Origin: Tistrella mobilis
Lineage (GTDB): Bacteria; Pseudomonadota; Alphaproteobacteria; Tistrellales; Tistrellaceae
Length of the DNA: 64,000 bases
Assembly: GCF_039634785.1 (NCBI RefSeq)
Contig: NZ_JBBIAB010000005.1
Coordinates: forward strand, 248,001-312,000
Direction: 5' to 3'
The notes under the pieces are model-generated. The model did no database searches. It was not told where the DNA came from and saw only the letters and a list, made by a program, of their open reading frames with translations. Shown one piece after another: positions 3,477 to 58,279 of this stretch; position 1 is the stretch's first letter, and the number at the start of each line of letters is the position of its first letter. The translations under genes were made by a program, and so were the position numbers.

Positions 3477-4961
3477 ATGGAGCCCGCAACCATCCTGGTC
3501 GCCGATGACGACCGCAGCATCTGTACCGTTCTGCATCAGGCACTCAGCCGGGCCGGGCATACGGTGCGCACCACCGGCACCGCCGCCTCGCTGTGGCGGA
3601 TGGTCGAGGACGGCGACGGCGATCTGGTGATCACCGATGTGGTGATGCCCGATGAGAACGCGCTCGACCTGTTGCCCCGGATCAAGCGCCTGCGCCCCAA
3701 CCTGCCGGTCATCGTGATGACCGCACAGAAGACGCTGTTGACCGCGGTCAAGGCGACTGAACGCGGGGCCTTCGAATATCTCCCCAAGCCGTTCGATCTG
3801 AACGAACTTCTACGCATCGTGCAGCGGGCGCTCAACACCCGGCGGGGCGATGCACCGCCGCCGGCGCTGGATCAGCGCGGCCAGCCGCAGGCCGAAGAAG
3901 AGATGCCGCTGGTCGGCCGGTCGCCGTCGATGCAGGAAGTCTACCGGGTTATGGCCCGGATCATGGGCACCGATCTGACGGTGATGATCACCGGCGAAAG
4001 CGGCACCGGCAAGGAGCTGGTGGCGCGGGCGCTGCATGATTACGGCAAGCGTCGCGGCGGGCCGTTCGTGGCGATCAACATGGCGGCCATCCCGCGCGAC
4101 CTGATCGAATCCGAGATGTTCGGCCACGAAAAGGGGGCCTTCACCGGTGCTGCCCAGCGCAAGACCGGCCGGTTCGAGCAGGCCCAGGGCGGCACGCTGT
4201 TTCTGGACGAGATCGGCGACATGCCGCTGGATGCCCAGACACGGCTGCTGCGCGTGCTTCAGGAAGGCGAATTCACCACCGTCGGCGGGCGCACGCCGAT
4301 CCGGGCCGATGTCCGCATCATCGCGGCGACCCACCGCGACCTTCGCCAGCTGATCCAGCAGGGCCTGTTCCGCGAGGATCTGTTCTATCGCCTGAACGTG
4401 GTGCCGGTGCGCCTGCCGCCGCTGCGCGAGCGGCGGGAAGACATCGCGGATCTGGCCCGGCATTTCCTGAAGCTCGCCTGCGATCAAGGCCTGCCGCTCA
4501 AGACCCTGTCGGCCGATGCGATCGAGGTGCTGACCGCCTATCACTGGCCCGGCAATGTCCGCGAGCTTGAGAATCTGATGCGTCGCCTGGCGGCGCTGTC
4601 GGCCGAGGACGTGATCTATCGTCCCGATATCGAGGGCGAGTTCGCCGAGCCGATGCCGGCGGATGACGACCGACGCCGCGGCGGCAGCCTGGGTGAGGCC
4701 ATCGATTTCCACCTCGCCGAATATTTCGATGCCCATGATGACGGCCTGCCGCCGGCAGGTCTCTATGATCGGATTCTGCGCGAGGTCGAGCGGCCGCTGA
4801 TCGAGCGTACTCTGGTCGCCACCCGGGGCAATCAGATCAAGGCGGCCCAGGTGCTGGGGTTGAACCGCAACACCCTGCGTAAGAAGATCCGGGATCTGTC
4901 GATCGAGGTCACCCGTGGGGGCGAGCCTACCCGCATCGGCGGCAGCGTGGCCGGCAGATGA
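3477..4961 (+). CDS. ntrC: nitrogen regulation response regulator NtrC
   Basis: Sigma-54-dependent activator of nitrogen assimilation genes. 494 aa, in order: receiver domain with phosphoacceptor Asp54 ([10 protein letters not shown]), AAA+ domain with Walker A GESGTGKE (from about residue 173), an intact GAFTGA sigma-54 contact loop (about 220-225), Walker [10 protein letters not shown], and a C-terminal Fis-type HTH ([20 protein letters not shown]). All motifs needed for sigma-54 activation are present. Cognate partner of NtrB upstream; overlaps ntrY by 4 bp. Confidence 0.96.
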
Positions 4962-50117: not shown

Positions 50118-50999
50118 CTAGCCGGCGCCGTTGCGTCCGACAGCCATGCCGCCCGTTGCGAGTTCGATGATCTCGTCGGTGATCTCGTCCTGATGGATCC
50201 GGCGGGCGAGATTGGTCAGATCCTCGCGCCGCCGTTCGATCCCCGTTTTGGCCGCGATCATCGCGGTCATGCGGGCGGTGTTCTCGGCCGCATAGGCGAG
50301 CAGCAGCACCTCGCAGAGTTCGGCGAAAACGTATTCTGCGGCCAGCCCGTCCAGCAGCTCGGCAGGCGGCAGCGTGATGAGCGGCGCCACGCGCCGGCCA
50401 GAAACCGGGAAACGCGAGAAGTCGAACGGCACCAGCTGGCGATGGATGATCTCGACGGTGTTGCCCTCCCCGCCGGCCGAGGGCGTCCCGTGCACCACCG
50501 CCAGCTGCCGCACCCGCCCGGTATCGAGCCGGTCATAGAGCGCGCCTGCAACATGATCGGCAAGGGCCGGCACGTCATCCACATGGGCCAACATCGGCAC
50601 CGACCAGGCCACATCCAGCCCGCGCACGCCCGCCAGCATCAGCCCGCGGTCGCCCACGATCAGCAGATCCACCGGAGCCGACCCGGCCACTTCCATCGCC
50701 CGGTCGAGCAGCCGGTCGGGCAGACCGCCGACAAAGCCCTGATCGGGTGTGACGACCAGAAGGGCGGTGCGCATCGGCACCACCCGCCGTGGCGCCCCAC
50801 CCCGATCATCACCCGCCTGCATCGCCAGCGCGTCGCCGATCGCACGTCCGACGATGTCGGCATGGGCCCGAACCGCCTGTATCCGTTCCCGTGCTTCCCG
50901 CGCCCGGACGGACGCGATGCCGCGCATGGCGGTCACGATCGCCTCCAGCTGACGAACCGTGCCGATCCGCGCTTCGACGTCGTGGAGGCGGCCGCTCAT
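50118..50999 (-). CDS. atpG: N-ATPase gamma subunit
   Basis: Central rotor shaft of the N-type F1. 293 aa, more diverged than housekeeping AtpG. N-terminal helix [29 protein letters not shown], Rossmann-like middle with [19 protein letters not shown], and C-terminal helix [45 protein letters not shown]; each is the expected gamma element. Last gene of the nine-gene operon, overlapping the alpha stop by 4 bp. Confidence 0.93.
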
Positions 51000-52558
51000 C
51001 CGTTTGTCCCCGTGGCGGCGGGTGCCGACAGATGCCCCGTAAGTTCCTTCAGGGCGGCGACCAGCTCGGCCCGCGCGGCATCATCCAGCTTGCCGCCAGC
51101 TGCCACGATCCGGGCAGCACCGGGCGCATGCGCGTCCAGATGTGCCGCCAGCCGCGGCCGGATGGCCTCCACCTGATCCTTCGACAGACCGTCGAAGATG
51201 CCTCCCGACAGCCCCACCAGCACGCCGATCTCGTCGATCGGGCGGAGCGCCGCATAGCGCGGCTGGCGCAGCCAGGCGCGGATCGCTTCGCCGCGGCGAA
51301 TGCGGTCACGCACGCGGGCATCGGTCATGCGGCCGAAACGGGTGAACATCTCCAGCTCCAGAAACTGGGCATAATCCAGCCGCAGCCGGCCCACCGCGCC
51401 GCGAAGGGCGGCGGTCTGGGTCTTGCCGCCCACCCGGCTGACCGACAGGCCGACATCCACCGCCGGCCGCTGATCGGCCGCAAACAACCCGCGGTCCAGA
51501 ACGATCTGGCCGTCGGTGATCGAGATCAGATTGGTGGGGATATAGGCCGAAAGATTGCCGGCATCGGTCTCCGCGATCGGCAGCGCGGTCAGCGAGCCGC
51601 CGCCCAGTTCCGGCGACAGCTTGGCCGCCCGTTCCAGCAGACGGGAATGCAGGTAGAAGATGTCCCCCGGATAGGCCTCGCGGCCCGGCGGCTCGTGGGT
51701 CAGAAGGGCGAGTTCGCGGTGGGTTGCGGCATGGCGGGTCAGGTCGTCGATCACGATCAGCGCATGGCCACCGGCATCGCGCACCGCCTCGGCAATCGTC
51801 ATGCCGGCGAAGGGCGCCATCCATTGCAGCCCGGCCGGTGCGCCTGCGCCGGCAACCACGAACACCGTGCGCTCCGGCGCTCCGAAACGCTTCACCGCAT
51901 CGATCACCCGGCGCACGGCCGACGCACGCTGGCCGACCGCGACATAGACGCAGATCATGTCGCTATGGGCCTGGTTGATGATCGTGTCGACCGCCACCGC
52001 CGTCTTGCCGGTGGCACGGTCCCCCACGATCAGCTCCCGCTGGCCGCGGCCCAGGGCGAAGAGGGCGTCCACCACCAGCAGGCCGGTTTCCACCGGCTCG
52101 GTGACCAGATCGCGATCCATGATCGCCGGTGCCGGGCGTTCGACCGGCAGGGTTTCCGTCGCCTTCACCGCCCCGCCCCCGTCCAGCGGCCGGCCCAGCG
52201 GATCGATGACCCGGCCCAGCAGGCCCGGGCCCACCGGCACCGTCACCACCTGGCCGGTGCCCCGCACGGGGCTGCCGGCTGCGATGCCGGCGCCGTCATC
52301 CATCATCACCGCGCCGATCCGCCCGGTGTCGAGGGTGAGCGCGAAGGCGCGGCGGCCCTCGCCCATATCCAGCAGCTCCATCAGCCGGATATCGGGCAGG
52401 CCCGAGACCAGGGCGATGCCGTCACCCATACGCTCCACCCGGCCGACCGCTTCGGCGGCAGCCCCCACCCGGGCACGATCGAGCCGGGCCTCGCCATCGG
52501 CCAGCCAGGCGCCGTCATCGGCCATGGCGGCCTGCTGGATCGGATCACTGGCGGTCAT
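50996..52558 (-). CDS. atpA: N-ATPase alpha subunit
   Basis: Non-catalytic nucleotide-binding F1 subunit. 520 aa. P-loop [44 protein letters not shown] (alpha-type ITDGQ) and the [10 protein letters not shown] signature. Start ATG at 52558, overlapping the b-subunit gene by 14 bp. Sequence is diverged from standard AtpA, e.g. at the ends, as for other N-ATPases. Confidence 0.95.
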
Positions 52559-53288
52559 CGCGCGCGAACTCCCGGGCAATCTGCGCCAGATCGGCGCGGA
52601 AACTGTTGGTGACCACGGCATGATCGGCCGCGGCCTCGAAGCCCGCGATCAGTGCGGGCTCGACCCTGATCTCCAGCGGCGGGACTGACCCGAGCACCCG
52701 GCCGATGGCCGCCTCGAGCGCAGCGCGCGTGGCCGCGCTCACCTCGGTGGCGGCCAGCAGCACCAGCGTTTCACCCCCATCGGTGAAGCGTCGTTTGACC
52801 GCATCGGGCAGGCCATCCAGGGCCTGGGCAAACCCTTCGATGAAACCGTCGAGACGTGCTTCGATCGGCAAACGGTCAAGCAGGCGCGCCGCGATTCGCG
52901 CCGCCAGGGTCCTGGCTGCGGCCTCGACTTCAGTGGTGCGCGCCGCCGCCGCGCGATCGGCCGCTTCCGTAGCCCGCGCCGTGATCCGCGCCGCTTCGGC
53001 CTGTGCCGCATCGATCACGGCGGCTGCCGCCCGATCTGCAGCCGCAACAGCCGCGGCCTCGGCAGCGGCATGGCCGGCCTTCAGGGCCGCATGTTCAGAG
53101 GCAGCGGTCGCCCGTTCGGCAAGGGCGGCCTGCCGCGCCGCCTCGGCTTCGTCGAGGATCGCCCGCGCCGCCTGCTGGCGCCGGTCGATCATCGCCGTAA
53201 CCGGCTTGAACAGAAAGCGGCCAAGCAGCCAGATCAGGACCAGGACGTTGACCGCCTGAATACCCAGCGTCCACCAGTCGATATGCAT
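52545..53288 (-). CDS. atpF: N-ATPase b subunit with delta-like C-terminus
   Basis: 247 aa, longer than the ~160 aa of usual b. A membrane helix ([21 protein letters not shown]) leads into a very Ala/Glu/Arg-rich stator coiled coil up to ~150. The last ~100 residues ([50 protein letters not shown]) resemble the C-terminal domain of the delta subunit. The operon has no separate atpH, so this protein probably replaces both, as known for N-ATPases. Confidence 0.9.
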
Positions 53289-53301: not shown

Positions 53302-53550
53302 TCAGCCGACGAAGGGATTGGCGAACAGCACCAGCAGCGCGATCACCAGACAGTAGATCGCCATGGTCTCGATCATCGCCAGGCCGACGAACAGGGTGCG
53401 CGACAGGGTTGGGGCCGCCTCGGGCTGGCGGGCGATGGCATCCATCGCAGCCGCCACTGCCCGGCCTTCGCCGAGCGCGGGGCCGATGGCGCCGAAAGAC
53501 ACCGCCATCGCGGCGGCGAGAATGCTGACGATCTCGATCCAGTTGGTCAT
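53302..53550 (-). CDS. atpE: N-ATPase c subunit, Na+-type
   Basis: 82 aa, two membrane helices with the ARQPE polar loop, forming the rotor ring. Ion ligands: Glu28 (PALGEG), Glu61, Thr62 and Tyr66 (ETMAIY). Compared with the Na+-translocating c ring of Ilyobacter (Gln32, Glu65, Ser66, Tyr70) every position is conserved or conservatively replaced with identical spacing, so Na+ is the probable coupling ion. ATGA overlap with atpB. The gene is short and lies in an alternative frame of a longer open stretch. Confidence 0.94.
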   Translation of the reverse strand: MTNWIEIVSILAAAMAVSFGAIGPALGEGRAVAAAMDAIARQPEAAPTLSRTLFVGLAMIETMAIYCLVIALLVLFANPFVG

Positions 53551-54281
53551 GACGCAGTCCCGGAGGAGGTAGGGGAGGAAGAAGATGTGGACGTATGGCC
53601 GGAAGCGGGCGGTGAGCCGCCCTCGCCTTCCAGCCCGGAGGCGATGAACACCATGGCGAGCACGGCGAAGATGTAGGCCTGCACCGCCCCGGTCAGCAGG
53701 TCGAGCGCCATCAGCGGGATGGGCACCAGAAGCCCCGCCAGCGACAGCACGATGCCGATCACGAACACGCCGCTCATCACATTGCCGAACAGGCGGATGA
53801 CCAGAGAGAAGGTCCGGGTGATCTGCTCGACAAGGTTGAGCGGCACCATCACCAGGCTGGGCTCGGCAAAGGTCTTCAGATAGCCGCCGAGCCCCTGCGC
53901 CCGGATGCCGAAGACGATCACCGAGACGGCGACGATGGCGGCCAGTGCCGCATCGGTTTCGATATGCGCGGTCGGCGGCTCGATACCCGGCACCAGCGAG
54001 GACCAGTTGGCGGTCAGGATGAACACCAGCAGCGTACCGATCAGGGCGCGAAACCGCGCCGGCTCCACCCGCATGGTCTCGCGGATCTGACTGTCGATAG
54101 CCTCGACCACCAGTTCCAGCACGGCCTGCATCCGGCCCGGCATCAACTCCAGCCGCCGGGTCAGCATCCAGGAACCGCCGGCAAGCAGGATCATGATGCC
54201 CCACGTCACCAGCACCGGCGTGGCGATCGGCACCGGCCCCAGATGAAAGGCGATCGGGGTTTCGAGCGGTGATCCGATCAC
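53547..54281 (-). CDS. atpB: N-ATPase a subunit
   Basis: Stator half-channel subunit, 244 aa, 5-6 membrane helices. Conserved VEQITRTFSLVIRLFGNVMSG carries the essential Arg (in SLVIRLFGN). The C-terminus ends with an unusual Gly/Ser/Thr-rich tail (GEGGSPPASGHTSTSSSS) about 25 residues long. Starts at GTG 54281, overlapping the atpR stop (GTGA). Confidence 0.94.
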   Translation of the reverse strand: MIGSPLETPIAFHLGPVPIATPVLVTWGIMILLAGGSWMLTRRLELMPGRMQAVLELVVEAIDSQIRETMRVEPARFRALIGTLLVFILTANWSSLVPGIEPPTAHIETDAALAAIVAVSVIVFGIRAQGLGGYLKTFAEPSLVMVPLNLVEQITRTFSLVIRLFGNVMSGVFVIGIVLSLAGLLVPIPLMALDLLTGAVQAYIFAVLAMVFIASGLEGEGGSPPASGHTSTSSSSPTSSGTAS

Positions 54282-54598
54282 GACGACCGCCCCCCATCGG
54301 GCAGCATGGCGGCGGATCGACGGCGCACCCGGCCGACCACCACCCGCCGCGCGATCAGGACACCCAGGGCAGCCGCCAGCAGCGGCCCCGCCCCCTGGCG
54401 GGCCGCCAGCACCAGAACCGGCACCAGAACGGCGAAGCGCGCCACCTGCATCGCTATGGCAAGACCGATGCGGCCGCCGGCGAAGAGATCTGTGTTCCGT
54501 CGCAGCACCAGAAAAAACCCGGCCCCGGCAGCAAGCCCCGCGACAAATGCCAGCGCCAGCGCCGTCGGATCCACCGTCAGGGTCGAGAGGGCGTTCAT
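54278..54598 (-). CDS. atpR: N-ATPase-specific membrane protein AtpR
   Basis: 106 aa, three hydrophobic segments (ALALAFVAGLAAGAGFFLVL, IGLAIAMQVARFAVLVPVLVL, LLAAALGVLIARRVVVG). AtpR is found only in N-ATPase operons and is thought to help c-ring assembly. Identification rests on position between atpQ and atpB and on the hydrophobic pattern. ATGA overlap with atpQ. Confidence 0.88.
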   Translation of the reverse strand: MNALSTLTVDPTALALAFVAGLAAGAGFFLVLRRNTDLFAGGRIGLAIAMQVARFAVLVPVLVLAARQGAGPLLAAALGVLIARRVVVGRVRRRSAAMLPDGGRSS

Positions 54599-54885
54599 GG
54601 GCGATGCATCCATTTCCAGGCCGACCAGAAGCCGAGTGCCACGCCCGCCATCAGCAGGGCGGCAGCGAAGGTGATGCCGGTGCCGGCCAGCCGGTCGAAC
54701 CAGCGGCCGAGGAACAGGCCGAGCAGCATCGGCGTCACGATCATCCAGCCGAGCACGCCGATCTGCCCCAGCCGGTGACCGATCCCGGGCTCATGATCCT
54801 TGCGTTTCGCCACCTCGCGGGCGGCCTGGCGATCGGCGGCCTGCTCCATCCGCCGGTCCTGACGGCGGTCGCGCGGCGGGGTCAT
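54595..54885 (-). CDS. atpQ: N-ATPase AtpQ (AtpI-like) membrane protein
   Basis: 96 aa. The hydrophilic N-terminus (MTPPRDRRQDRRMEQAADRQ...) is rich in Arg/Asp. It is followed by two helices with the AtpI/Gene1-type motif IGVLGWMIVTPMLLGLFLGRWFDRL and a second helix FAAALLMAGVALGFWSAWKW. Second of the two accessory membrane genes of the N-ATPase type, between epsilon and AtpR. GGGGAGG ribosome site 7 bp upstream of the ATG at 54885. Confidence 0.9.
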   Translation of the reverse strand: MTPPRDRRQDRRMEQAADRQAAREVAKRKDHEPGIGHRLGQIGVLGWMIVTPMLLGLFLGRWFDRLAGTGITFAAALLMAGVALGFWSAWKWMHRP

Positions 54886-54901
54886 GGCGTCGCCTCCCCG
54901 G

Positions 54902-56787
<1,886 letters not shown>

Positions 56788-56843
56788 TCACGGGCCCTTC
56801 ATTGCTGCTACGCACAATCTCCACCCCGATGCTCCCTCCGACC

Positions 56844-56857
56844 TTGATCAGGATCAA
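56844..56857. promoter_or_regulatory. perfect FNR/Anr-type box in the N-ATPase/dehydratase divergent region
   Basis: TTGAT-CAGG-ATCAA matches the FNR/CRP-family anaerobic consensus TTGAT-N4-ATCAA exactly. Centre is 96 bp from the atpD start and 172 bp from the dehydratase start. For atpD that would place a class II transcription start near 56809. Palindromic, so either gene could respond. Confidence 0.75.
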
Positions 56858-56900: not shown

Positions 56901-56919
56901 GGTTCATTCAGTGAACCAC
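56901..56919. promoter_or_regulatory. palindromic operator candidate before the dehydratase operon
   Basis: TGGTTCA-N5-TGAACCA, perfect 7-bp arms. A TTGACA -35-like hexamer (56931-56936) begins 12 bp downstream on the plus strand, with a weak -10 (CAGGAT) at about 56953. An unlinked regulator could bind here. GTTCAT also occurs as a direct repeat 20 bp upstream (56880 region). Confidence 0.5.
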
Positions 56920-57022
56920 GATTTGCGTATTGACACCAACGGACAGGCCGCGCAGGATCCATTCAAGTCAAGATGATCACCGGCGCATGAAGTCCGGTGG
57001 CGCGACGGGAGGACGACAAGTC

Positions 57023-58279
57023 ATGGGCTACACGCTCGCGGAGAAGGTTCTCGCGCGGACCTCAGGTCGCGATCACGTTCGGGCCGGAGATGAAATCGAG
57101 GCCCGCCCCGATTTCGTCATCGCGTATGATTTTCCCGGCTATACCGATGTGATCTTCCGTCAGATGCGGGACGATTTCGGTATAGAGCGTGTCGACGATG
57201 CATCCCGCTTCGCCATCTTCATCGACCACATGGTTCCGACGGCCACGCCGAAGGAAGAAGAGCTTCACCAGATGACCCGGGCATGGTGCGCCGAACAGGG
57301 CGCAGCCCTTTACGAGCGCCACGGCATCGGTCATCAGGTCTCGGCCGAGGTCGGCTATGCGGTGCCCGGCGGCTTCGCGGTCCATTTTGACGGTCATGTC
57401 AGCCAGCTCGGCGCCTTCGGTTCGCTGGCGATCGGGCTGCGCCGCAACCTTCTTGAGGCCTTCGTCCGCCCCGCCATCTCGATCAGGGTGCCGGAGACGG
57501 TGCGGATCGATCTGACCGGTTCTCTCCGGCCGGGGGTGATGGCGCGGGACGTCTTCCACCATCTGGTCCGGGCGCTCGGCCCCAAATTCGCCGCCTTCAA
57601 GGTGCTGGAACTGGGCGGGCCGGCGGTTGCGGAGATGAGCATCGAAAGCCGGCAGACGATCTGCGGCCTTGCGATGTTCACTGGCGCCACCACCGCTGTC
57701 ATGATGCCCGACGACAAAACCGCGGACTGGCTGGGAGACCGGCCGAAGCTCGCGCTCGACCCGGTATTCAGCGACGACGATGCCGTCTATGCCGCCCGCC
57801 ACACCGTCGACCTGTCGGCGCTGGAGCCGGTGGTCGTCCTGCCGCCCACGCCCTCCAATACCCGCGATCTCTCGGAGGTGATCGGCACCGAGGTCCAGGC
57901 CGGCTATCTCGGCAGCTGCGCCAGCGGCCGGATCGAGGATCTGCGCGCTGCGGCCCAGGTGCTGAAAGGCCGTCAGATCGCCCCCGGCTTCGCGCTTCAT
58001 GTCGTGCCCACCAGCCGGGCGCTGATGGCTCAGGCCGCGGCCGAAGGTTTGATCACCACGCTGGTCGAGGCGGGCGCCTTCGTCAGCAGCCCGTCCTGCG
58101 ACTATTGCTTCGGCCGGATCGCGACCATGGCCGAAGGCCAGCGGGCGGTCTCTACCGGCACACTCAACGTGCCCGGCCGCATGGGACATCCGAAGTCCGA
58201 GATCTTCCTGTGCAATGCCGCAGCCGTGGCTGCCGCCGCCATCGAAGGCCGGATCGCGGATCCCCGCCGCTATCTCTGA
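57023..58279 (+). CDS. aconitase-family dehydratase, large subunit (LeuC/DmdA-like)
   Basis: 418 aa [4Fe-4S] hydro-lyase subunit of the LeuC/homoaconitase type. Fe-S ligands are visible: GYLGSCASGRIEDLRAA (first Cys) and SPSCDYCFGRI (Cys-x2-Cys). Substrate-side motifs: IDHMVPTATPKEEE and HGIGHQVSAEVGYAVPGG, where LeuC has HGIVHVI-like text. STGTLNVPGRMGHP near the C-terminus. Lower similarity to LeuC than expected for leucine synthesis, and neighbours are a transporter and a lyase, so catabolic use (e.g. of 2,3-dimethylmalate or a related alkyl-malate) is more likely. GGGAGGACGA ribosome site before the ATG. Confidence 0.85.
   Translation: MGYTLAEKVLARTSGRDHVRAGDEIEARPDFVIAYDFPGYTDVIFRQMRDDFGIERVDDASRFAIFIDHMVPTATPKEEELHQMTRAWCAEQGAALYERHGIGHQVSAEVGYAVPGGFAVHFDGHVSQLGAFGSLAIGLRRNLLEAFVRPAISIRVPETVRIDLTGSLRPGVMARDVFHHLVRALGPKFAAFKVLELGGPAVAEMSIESRQTICGLAMFTGATTAVMMPDDKTADWLGDRPKLALDPVFSDDDAVYAARHTVDLSALEPVVVLPPTPSNTRDLSEVIGTEVQAGYLGSCASGRIEDLRAAAQVLKGRQIAPGFALHVVPTSRALMAQAAAEGLITTLVEAGAFVSSPSCDYCFGRIATMAEGQRAVSTGTLNVPGRMGHPKSEIFLCNAAAVAAAAIEGRIADPRRYL

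Follow-up and report, generated by a model that had tools for sequence, protein, structure and literature searches.

A predicted FNR/FnrL-type site precedes an N-ATPase operon in Tistrella mobilis and recurs before other N-ATPases

We find a perfect FNR-type palindrome, TTGATCAGGATCAA, upstream of an N-ATPase operon in Tistrella mobilis, and we consider it likely that this is the site of an FNR/FnrL-type regulator whose main target is that operon, activated at low oxygen for the upkeep of the proton-motive force. In the mechanism that we propose, the regulator would keep its iron-sulphur cluster and dimerise when oxygen falls (a step established for FNR and carried over here), bind TTGATCAGGATCAA, placed about 41.5 bp ahead of the transcription start, and activate atpDCQRBEFAG. 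The product would be a second rotary ATPase, probably H+-coupled, which most likely hydrolyses ATP to sustain the proton-motive force as respiration slows down. Among accessory rotary ATPases the N-type is widespread, and published proposals for its role include salt tolerance and acid survival. The operon would be a new target for a type of regulation that is already known, and the value of the finding lies in making the role of N-ATPases testable: a recurring oxygen-regulator site points both to a condition under which expression and phenotype can be sought and to a regulator candidate.

The N-ATPase operon and its enzyme

The window, which is the whole 64-kb stretch of DNA that we analysed (C5:248001-312000 of the 6.16-Mb genome), holds nine genes in the order atpDCQRBEFAG, including AtpQ and AtpR, the arrangement by which an N-ATPase is recognised:

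55327..56754, minus strand: atpD, N-ATPase beta subunit, first gene of the operon (TIGR01039, over cut-off)
54902..55438, minus strand: atpC, epsilon-like subunit, named by operon order and annotated relatives
54595..55005, minus strand: AtpQ (PF09527 and TIGR02230, over cut-off)
54278..54613, minus strand: AtpR, the N-ATPase marker (PF12966, 47.8 bits, cut-off 26)
53547..54281, minus strand: a subunit (PF00119)
53302..53550, minus strand: c subunit (Glu28, Glu61, Thr62, Met63, Tyr66)
52545..53288, minus strand: b subunit (PF00430 and PF00213 (OSCP/delta), both below cut-offs)
50996..52621, minus strand: alpha subunit (profile match)
50118..50999, minus strand: gamma subunit (all models under their cut-offs)

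The true start of atpC probably lies near 55342 or downstream of it. Against TIGR03305, the model for the alternate beta subunit, atpD scored 599.9 bits, below the cut-off of 752. That curated cut-off is passed by one of 385 genomes of the class and thus excludes this branch of N-ATPase beta subunits, so that automatic annotation labels the gene plain atpD. At E 1e-100, TIGR03305 matches 361 of the 385 genomes; we dropped it as a marker and used AtpR instead because it also picks up canonical beta. The b subunit is long (247 amino acids), with a weak b match at its start and a weak OSCP/delta match at its end, and the gene in this position in relatives is annotated ‘subunit delta’; it is perhaps a b-delta fusion.

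The first-pass annotation called the enzyme a Na+ ATPase, a label that its c subunit makes doubtful. Residues 61, 62, 63 and 66 are identical to the ion-site residues reported for the Burkholderia pseudomallei N-ATPase ring, which was measured as an H+-specific c17 ring moving 5.7 ions per ATP; the c subunit of that ring has Glu61, Thr62, Met63 and Tyr66 together with a helix-1 glutamate numbered 30 (PMC5376962).

As to the direction of work, the reading that we favour is an ATP-driven proton pump for low oxygen. The zeta subunit blocks ATP hydrolysis by the main F-ATPase of alphaproteobacteria. Because a zeta subunit (PF07345) is also encoded in this genome, hydrolysis would be the most likely role for the second enzyme. 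The best-surviving alternative keeps the regulation and changes the enzyme, which would be an ATP synthase suited to a low driving force by a large ring and many ions per ATP. We rate it as unlikely, though a serious contender: the c17 ring of B. pseudomallei, with its 5.7 ions per ATP, speaks for it, but the authors who measured that ring propose a pump (PMC5376962). At one locus, in a Rhodanobacter metagenome-assembled genome (MAG; L227), an acetate kinase-like ORF lies directly upstream, which as a single example fits a fermentative supply of ATP for a pump rather than a synthase. Nitrate respiration was considered as the low-oxygen setting and rejected, as the genome has no narG over cut-off and one weak partial match.

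The box, its genomic counterparts and a candidate regulator

The site in front of the operon is a perfect match to TTGAT-N4-ATCAA, exactly as the first-pass annotation had claimed:

56844..56857, no strand: FNR/FnrL-type box TTGATCAGGATCAA, arms TTGAT and ATCAA, spacer CAGG

Its placement between the N-ATPase and a dehydratase operon was likewise borne out. TTGATCAGGATCAA lies 89 bp ahead of atpD, in a 268-bp intergenic region bounded by the ATG of atpD (56754, minus strand) and that of the dehydratase-like gene (57023, plus strand). It is the only perfect box in the window, where 0.0036 would be expected from composition (67.5% GC). With up to one mismatch to TTGATN4ATCAA allowed, the window has four matches, a number reached in none of 100 shuffles (mean 0.61).

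Across the 6.16-Mb genome, the perfect pattern occurs six times and the reversed pattern once, against a compositional expectation of 0.34. The genes beside the other five perfect boxes, named by reading their translations without family searches, are as follows:

Perfect box between hemN-like and OmpW-like genes
Perfect box ahead of a cydA-like gene
Perfect box ahead of a phasin-like gene
Perfect box ahead of a universal stress protein gene, sharing bases with the stop codon of the preceding ORF
Perfect box just within the start of a MOSC-like ORF

Most of these boxes precede genes typical of FNR control. The relaxed pattern TTGAY-N4-RTCAA, the Fnr consensus of Sphingopyxis (PMC7713065), is found 17 times, its reverse twice, and about three sites are expected by composition. 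It adds 11 sites to the perfect set, of which we inspected nine (those on contigs C36 and C46 were left out): four are intergenic, including one ahead of a short ORF with a ccoN-like gene after it, and five are inside ORFs, including one in the last part of a cydC-like ORF, with another cydA-like gene 206 bp further on. The box set is therefore not clean, with one of six perfect sites and five of the nine inspected further relaxed sites inside ORFs. Contig C8, where the canonical F1 beta is encoded, has none of the 17 relaxed boxes. A relaxed box elsewhere in the window, TTGACCGCGGTCAA (3738-3751), was set aside; it falls within a response-regulator-like ORF and is probably a chance match.

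A regulator that could read such boxes is encoded in the genome. The HTH_Crp_2 profile matches 21 places, and among the 12 translations that we read, the protein at C10:104451 (L011) combines the cluster cysteines and recognition helix expected of a cognate regulator: a CX2CX7C motif, an additional cysteine that lines up with one in FNR, and an E..SR helix. Among solved structures, FixK2 (4i2o) and an FNR (5cvr/5e44) are nearest to it. The best NCBIfam model is FnrL, at 177 bits against a cut-off of 300, so that sequence comparison places the protein in the FNR/FnrL family, as a possible FnrL orthologue. A second E..SR protein, with a CX2C motif, is encoded at C15:62620.

Which divergent operon is the target

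Since the box is common to a divergent pair of operons, its target needed working out. The following elements bear on the question:

56765..56770, minus strand: ribosome-binding-like AGGAGG before atpD, found by reading
56816..56821, minus strand: possible -10 element GAGATT, inferred, 22 nt from the box towards atpD, three of six positions as in TATAAT
56901..56917, no strand: second palindrome, GGTTCATTCAGTGAACC, on the dehydratase side, found by reading
56930..56958, plus strand: possible separate dehydratase promoter TTGACA-N17-CAGGAT, found by eye, below the scan threshold
57023..58279, plus strand: divergent aconitase/3-isopropylmalate dehydratase large-subunit-like gene (PF00330; NF001614 at 365.5 bits, below its cut-off of 385)

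A scan of the intergenic region for promoters and terminators gave none over threshold on either side. In an alignment with two genomes of the genus, the box is inside a 46-bp block whose single change is a spacer base in the sister species G033, where the -10-like GAGATT reads GACATT. The matching place on the dehydratase side reads TTCATG and is variable in G033. The pattern of the second palindrome, GGTTCATN3RTGAACC, occurs once in the genome; the arms of GGTTCATTCAGTGAACC are largely kept in two relatives, and a conspecific genome has a perfect 7-3-7 version. GGTTCATTCAGTGAACC is perhaps the operator of a specific regulator for the dehydratase/transporter operon, in which the dehydratase-like gene is followed by branched-chain ABC transporter genes.

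Promoter geometry at other N-ATPases points, on balance, towards atpD. We examined 30 sites at 26 loci, each a relaxed box or a one-mismatch strict box at -300..-45 (L130, L193, L253, L216 and L244 were left out of this count). NANNNT was found 21-24 nt downstream at 21 of 30 sites towards atpD and at 7 of 30 the other way. The stricter TANNNT, at 6/30 versus 4/30 (forward shuffle mean 1.2, P 0.002), barely favours the atpD direction. Moreover, the ORF upstream is co-directional with atpD at L135, L190, L188, L197, L227 and, with a one-mismatch box, L126, as is an annotated flavodoxin gene in Paraburkholderia phytofirmans (L273), so that at those loci the box has no divergent rival to serve. 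In L227 the box overlaps the end of the acetate kinase-like ORF.

These comparisons weigh on two further alternatives. The box might control both divergent operons together, which we regard as improbable. Its position is common to both, and two loci with a divergent neighbour, L201 and L210, each carry a pair of boxes: TANNNT accompanies the distal one only towards the neighbour, and NANNNT the proximal one only towards atpD; the divergent genes there each seem to own a box, and divergent genes can therefore share a regulon. At the locus studied here, however, there is one box only, and the dehydratase side has no -10-like hexamer at the matching place and has a TTGACA and a palindrome of its own. 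The same features, together with the variability of that stretch in G033, make it more improbable still that the box serves the dehydratase/branched-chain ABC transporter operon with the N-ATPase as a bystander. This would suit a symmetric box between two operons and a dehydratase that belongs to an Fe-S enzyme family (PF00330), but other genomes keep the box beside the N-ATPase next to different, often co-directional, neighbours. We thus retain the N-ATPase operon as the probable main target.

The neighbourhoods of box-bearing N-ATPases in the set L201, L275, L210, L119 and L227 include a CBS-domain protein and cytochromes b (annotated in Burkholderia pyrrocinia), and further ORFs that resemble alcohol dehydrogenase, universal stress protein and acetate kinase.

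Relation to known systems

The first-pass annotation held that no regulation of N-ATPases was established. This is nearly right, with one report to set beside it: in Nitrospira marina, multiple N-ATPase subunits are more abundant at low O2 by proteomics (PMC8115632). That case differs from ours in consisting of protein data from another phylum, with neither a regulator nor a site named in the text available. Among the papers searched, none has both whole words ‘N-ATPase’ and ‘FNR’, synonyms such as Anr or FixK aside.

The box type is like that of the FnrL regulons of Rhodobacter capsulatus and R. sphaeroides, with which the genome shares hemN, universal stress protein and ccoN as kinds of target (PMC4634722). 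Two 14-mers given in that paper, TTGATCTGCGTCAA and TTGATAAGGATCAA, also precede N-ATPases, at L160 and L135, and a term search of its main text gave no match for ATP synthase. Cereibacter sphaeroides 2.4.1 differs in that its plasmid N-ATPase is without a box. The Fnr regulon of Sphingopyxis granuli TFA has the consensus TTGAc/t-N4-g/aTCAA, as here, with most boxes having their centre at -41.5 relative to a mapped start and targets that include ccoN, hemN2 and uspA; by term search, ‘ATPase’ and ‘ATP synthase’ are absent from its main text (PMC7713065). The N-type ATPase of B. pseudomallei resembles ours in its nine-gene operon and c-subunit residues and differs in its proposed role, acid survival, and the terms ‘oxygen’ and ‘anaerobic’ are absent from the main text of that report (PMC5376962).

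In B. thailandensis, the chromosome-2 atp operon, which we infer from gene order to be an N-ATPase, is down at 37 C, as are nar, nos and universal stress genes (PMC3966863). Under oxygen limitation the chromosome-1 atp operon is induced and, in the portion of that report available, the chromosome-2 operon is not named (PMC3966863); by analogy, its absence from the named oxygen-responsive genes would count against low-oxygen control as the best explanation. Elsewhere, a TTGATCTCGATCAA box is reported before cytochrome bd in B. cenocepacia, the accessible text on Dinoroseobacter shibae mentions only F0F1 clusters, as repressed, and N-ATPase mRNA of Synechococcus 7002 is described as showing no rise under salt.

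Recurrence before other N-ATPases

AtpR (PF12966) was found in 29 of 385 genomes of the class (27 over cut-off) and in 19 of 398 of the phylum (18 over). For upstream DNA we fetched 42 loci and scanned 39, L118, L143 and L156 being without a usable beta start; the c-subunit alignment drew in 80 named loci, 79 with beta in place (L183 being without). L216 and L244, at <30% identity, were dropped before the counts. Removal of near-duplicates reduced 116 upstream regions to 108, among which related strains stay (for example, L188 and L193).

All three genomes of the genus have a perfect box at -103. Of the 108 non-redundant N-ATPase loci, 18 have a relaxed box at -260..-45 before atpD, against 0.08 in shuffles (maximum 1 of 300), and 11 have a strict box in the same range, against 0.04 (maximum 1 of 300). 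Over the whole 600 bp, control motifs gave no match each (reversed relaxed and strict patterns, N3 spacing, a Crp-like motif and four permuted motifs) or one match each (N5 and N6 spacings). At 77 named loci, relaxed boxes number 15 in 16.5 kb upstream versus 24 in 845 kb elsewhere, and strict boxes eight versus six in the same stretches. Named carriers include members of Burkholderia, Paraburkholderia, Caballeronia, Trinickia, Ciceribacter and Hwanghaeella, with MAGs of Hydrocarboniphaga and Rhodanobacter.

Plasmid loci were scanned as well. We chose 18 of 106 records ourselves among the 60 listed; five of the 18 carry no atpD annotation, and there we took the start from the match. Six of 18 have a relaxed box at -300..-45 (Paraburkholderia phytofirmans, Caballeronia SBC2, Burkholderia pyrrocinia, Rhizobium ACO-34A, Paraburkholderia PGU19 and Ciceribacter thiooxidans), and the Sulfitobacter SK012 locus has one at -420. 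No box was found at the plasmid loci of four Azospirillum records, C. sphaeroides 2.4.1, Novosphingobium, two methanotrophs, Sulfuricella, Rhizobium jaguaris and Paroceanicella.

That TTGATCAGGATCAA is a chance match is scarcely credible: some boxes of the genome do lie inside ORFs and about three of its 17 relaxed sites are expected anyway, but only 0.00008 perfect boxes are expected from composition in the intergenic region, the box arms are kept in the sister species, and the box recurs before other N-ATPases. The low-oxygen control of the N-ATPase through an FNR/FnrL-type protein that the first-pass annotation had suggested is strongly supported in silico by the encoded regulator, the other boxes mostly before FNR-type genes, and recurrence in unrelated lineages far above chance. 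Because the arrangement recurs in unrelated bacteria, a low-oxygen role is now testable.

The recurrence is patchy. In a quick LG+G4 tree of 132 beta sequences (built without L253, L216, L244, partial matches and any locus offering <250 bp of upstream DNA), a relaxed box is present at 27 tips, in 16 all-carrier clades, and 105 of 132 are without one. The conservation on which the first-pass annotation had made its proposal depend is thus seen throughout the genus and, well above shuffles, at a minority of loci beyond it, while most N-ATPases lack the box. The tree calls for at least 16 state changes, with a mean of 24.8 and a minimum of 20 for shuffled labels; the trait follows lineages in part, yet with many gains or losses, and the count is blind to which of the two. 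A broader proposal, which we put forward tentatively and at less than even confidence, is that in many Proteobacteria N-ATPases would be low-oxygen proton pumps and not salt pumps, mobile operons wired repeatedly into the FNR/Anr/FnrL network (at least 16 changes), and that their hydrolysis of ATP would sustain the proton-motive force once respiration has failed and the main F-ATPase has been locked against hydrolysis.

Paraburkholderia xenovorans LB400 has both states in one genome. Its chromosome 3 N-ATPase operon (L203) has no box, and its chromosome 1 operon (L228) has one-mismatch boxes at -118 and -230, so that the pair offers a natural contrast between a boxed and an unboxed N-ATPase.
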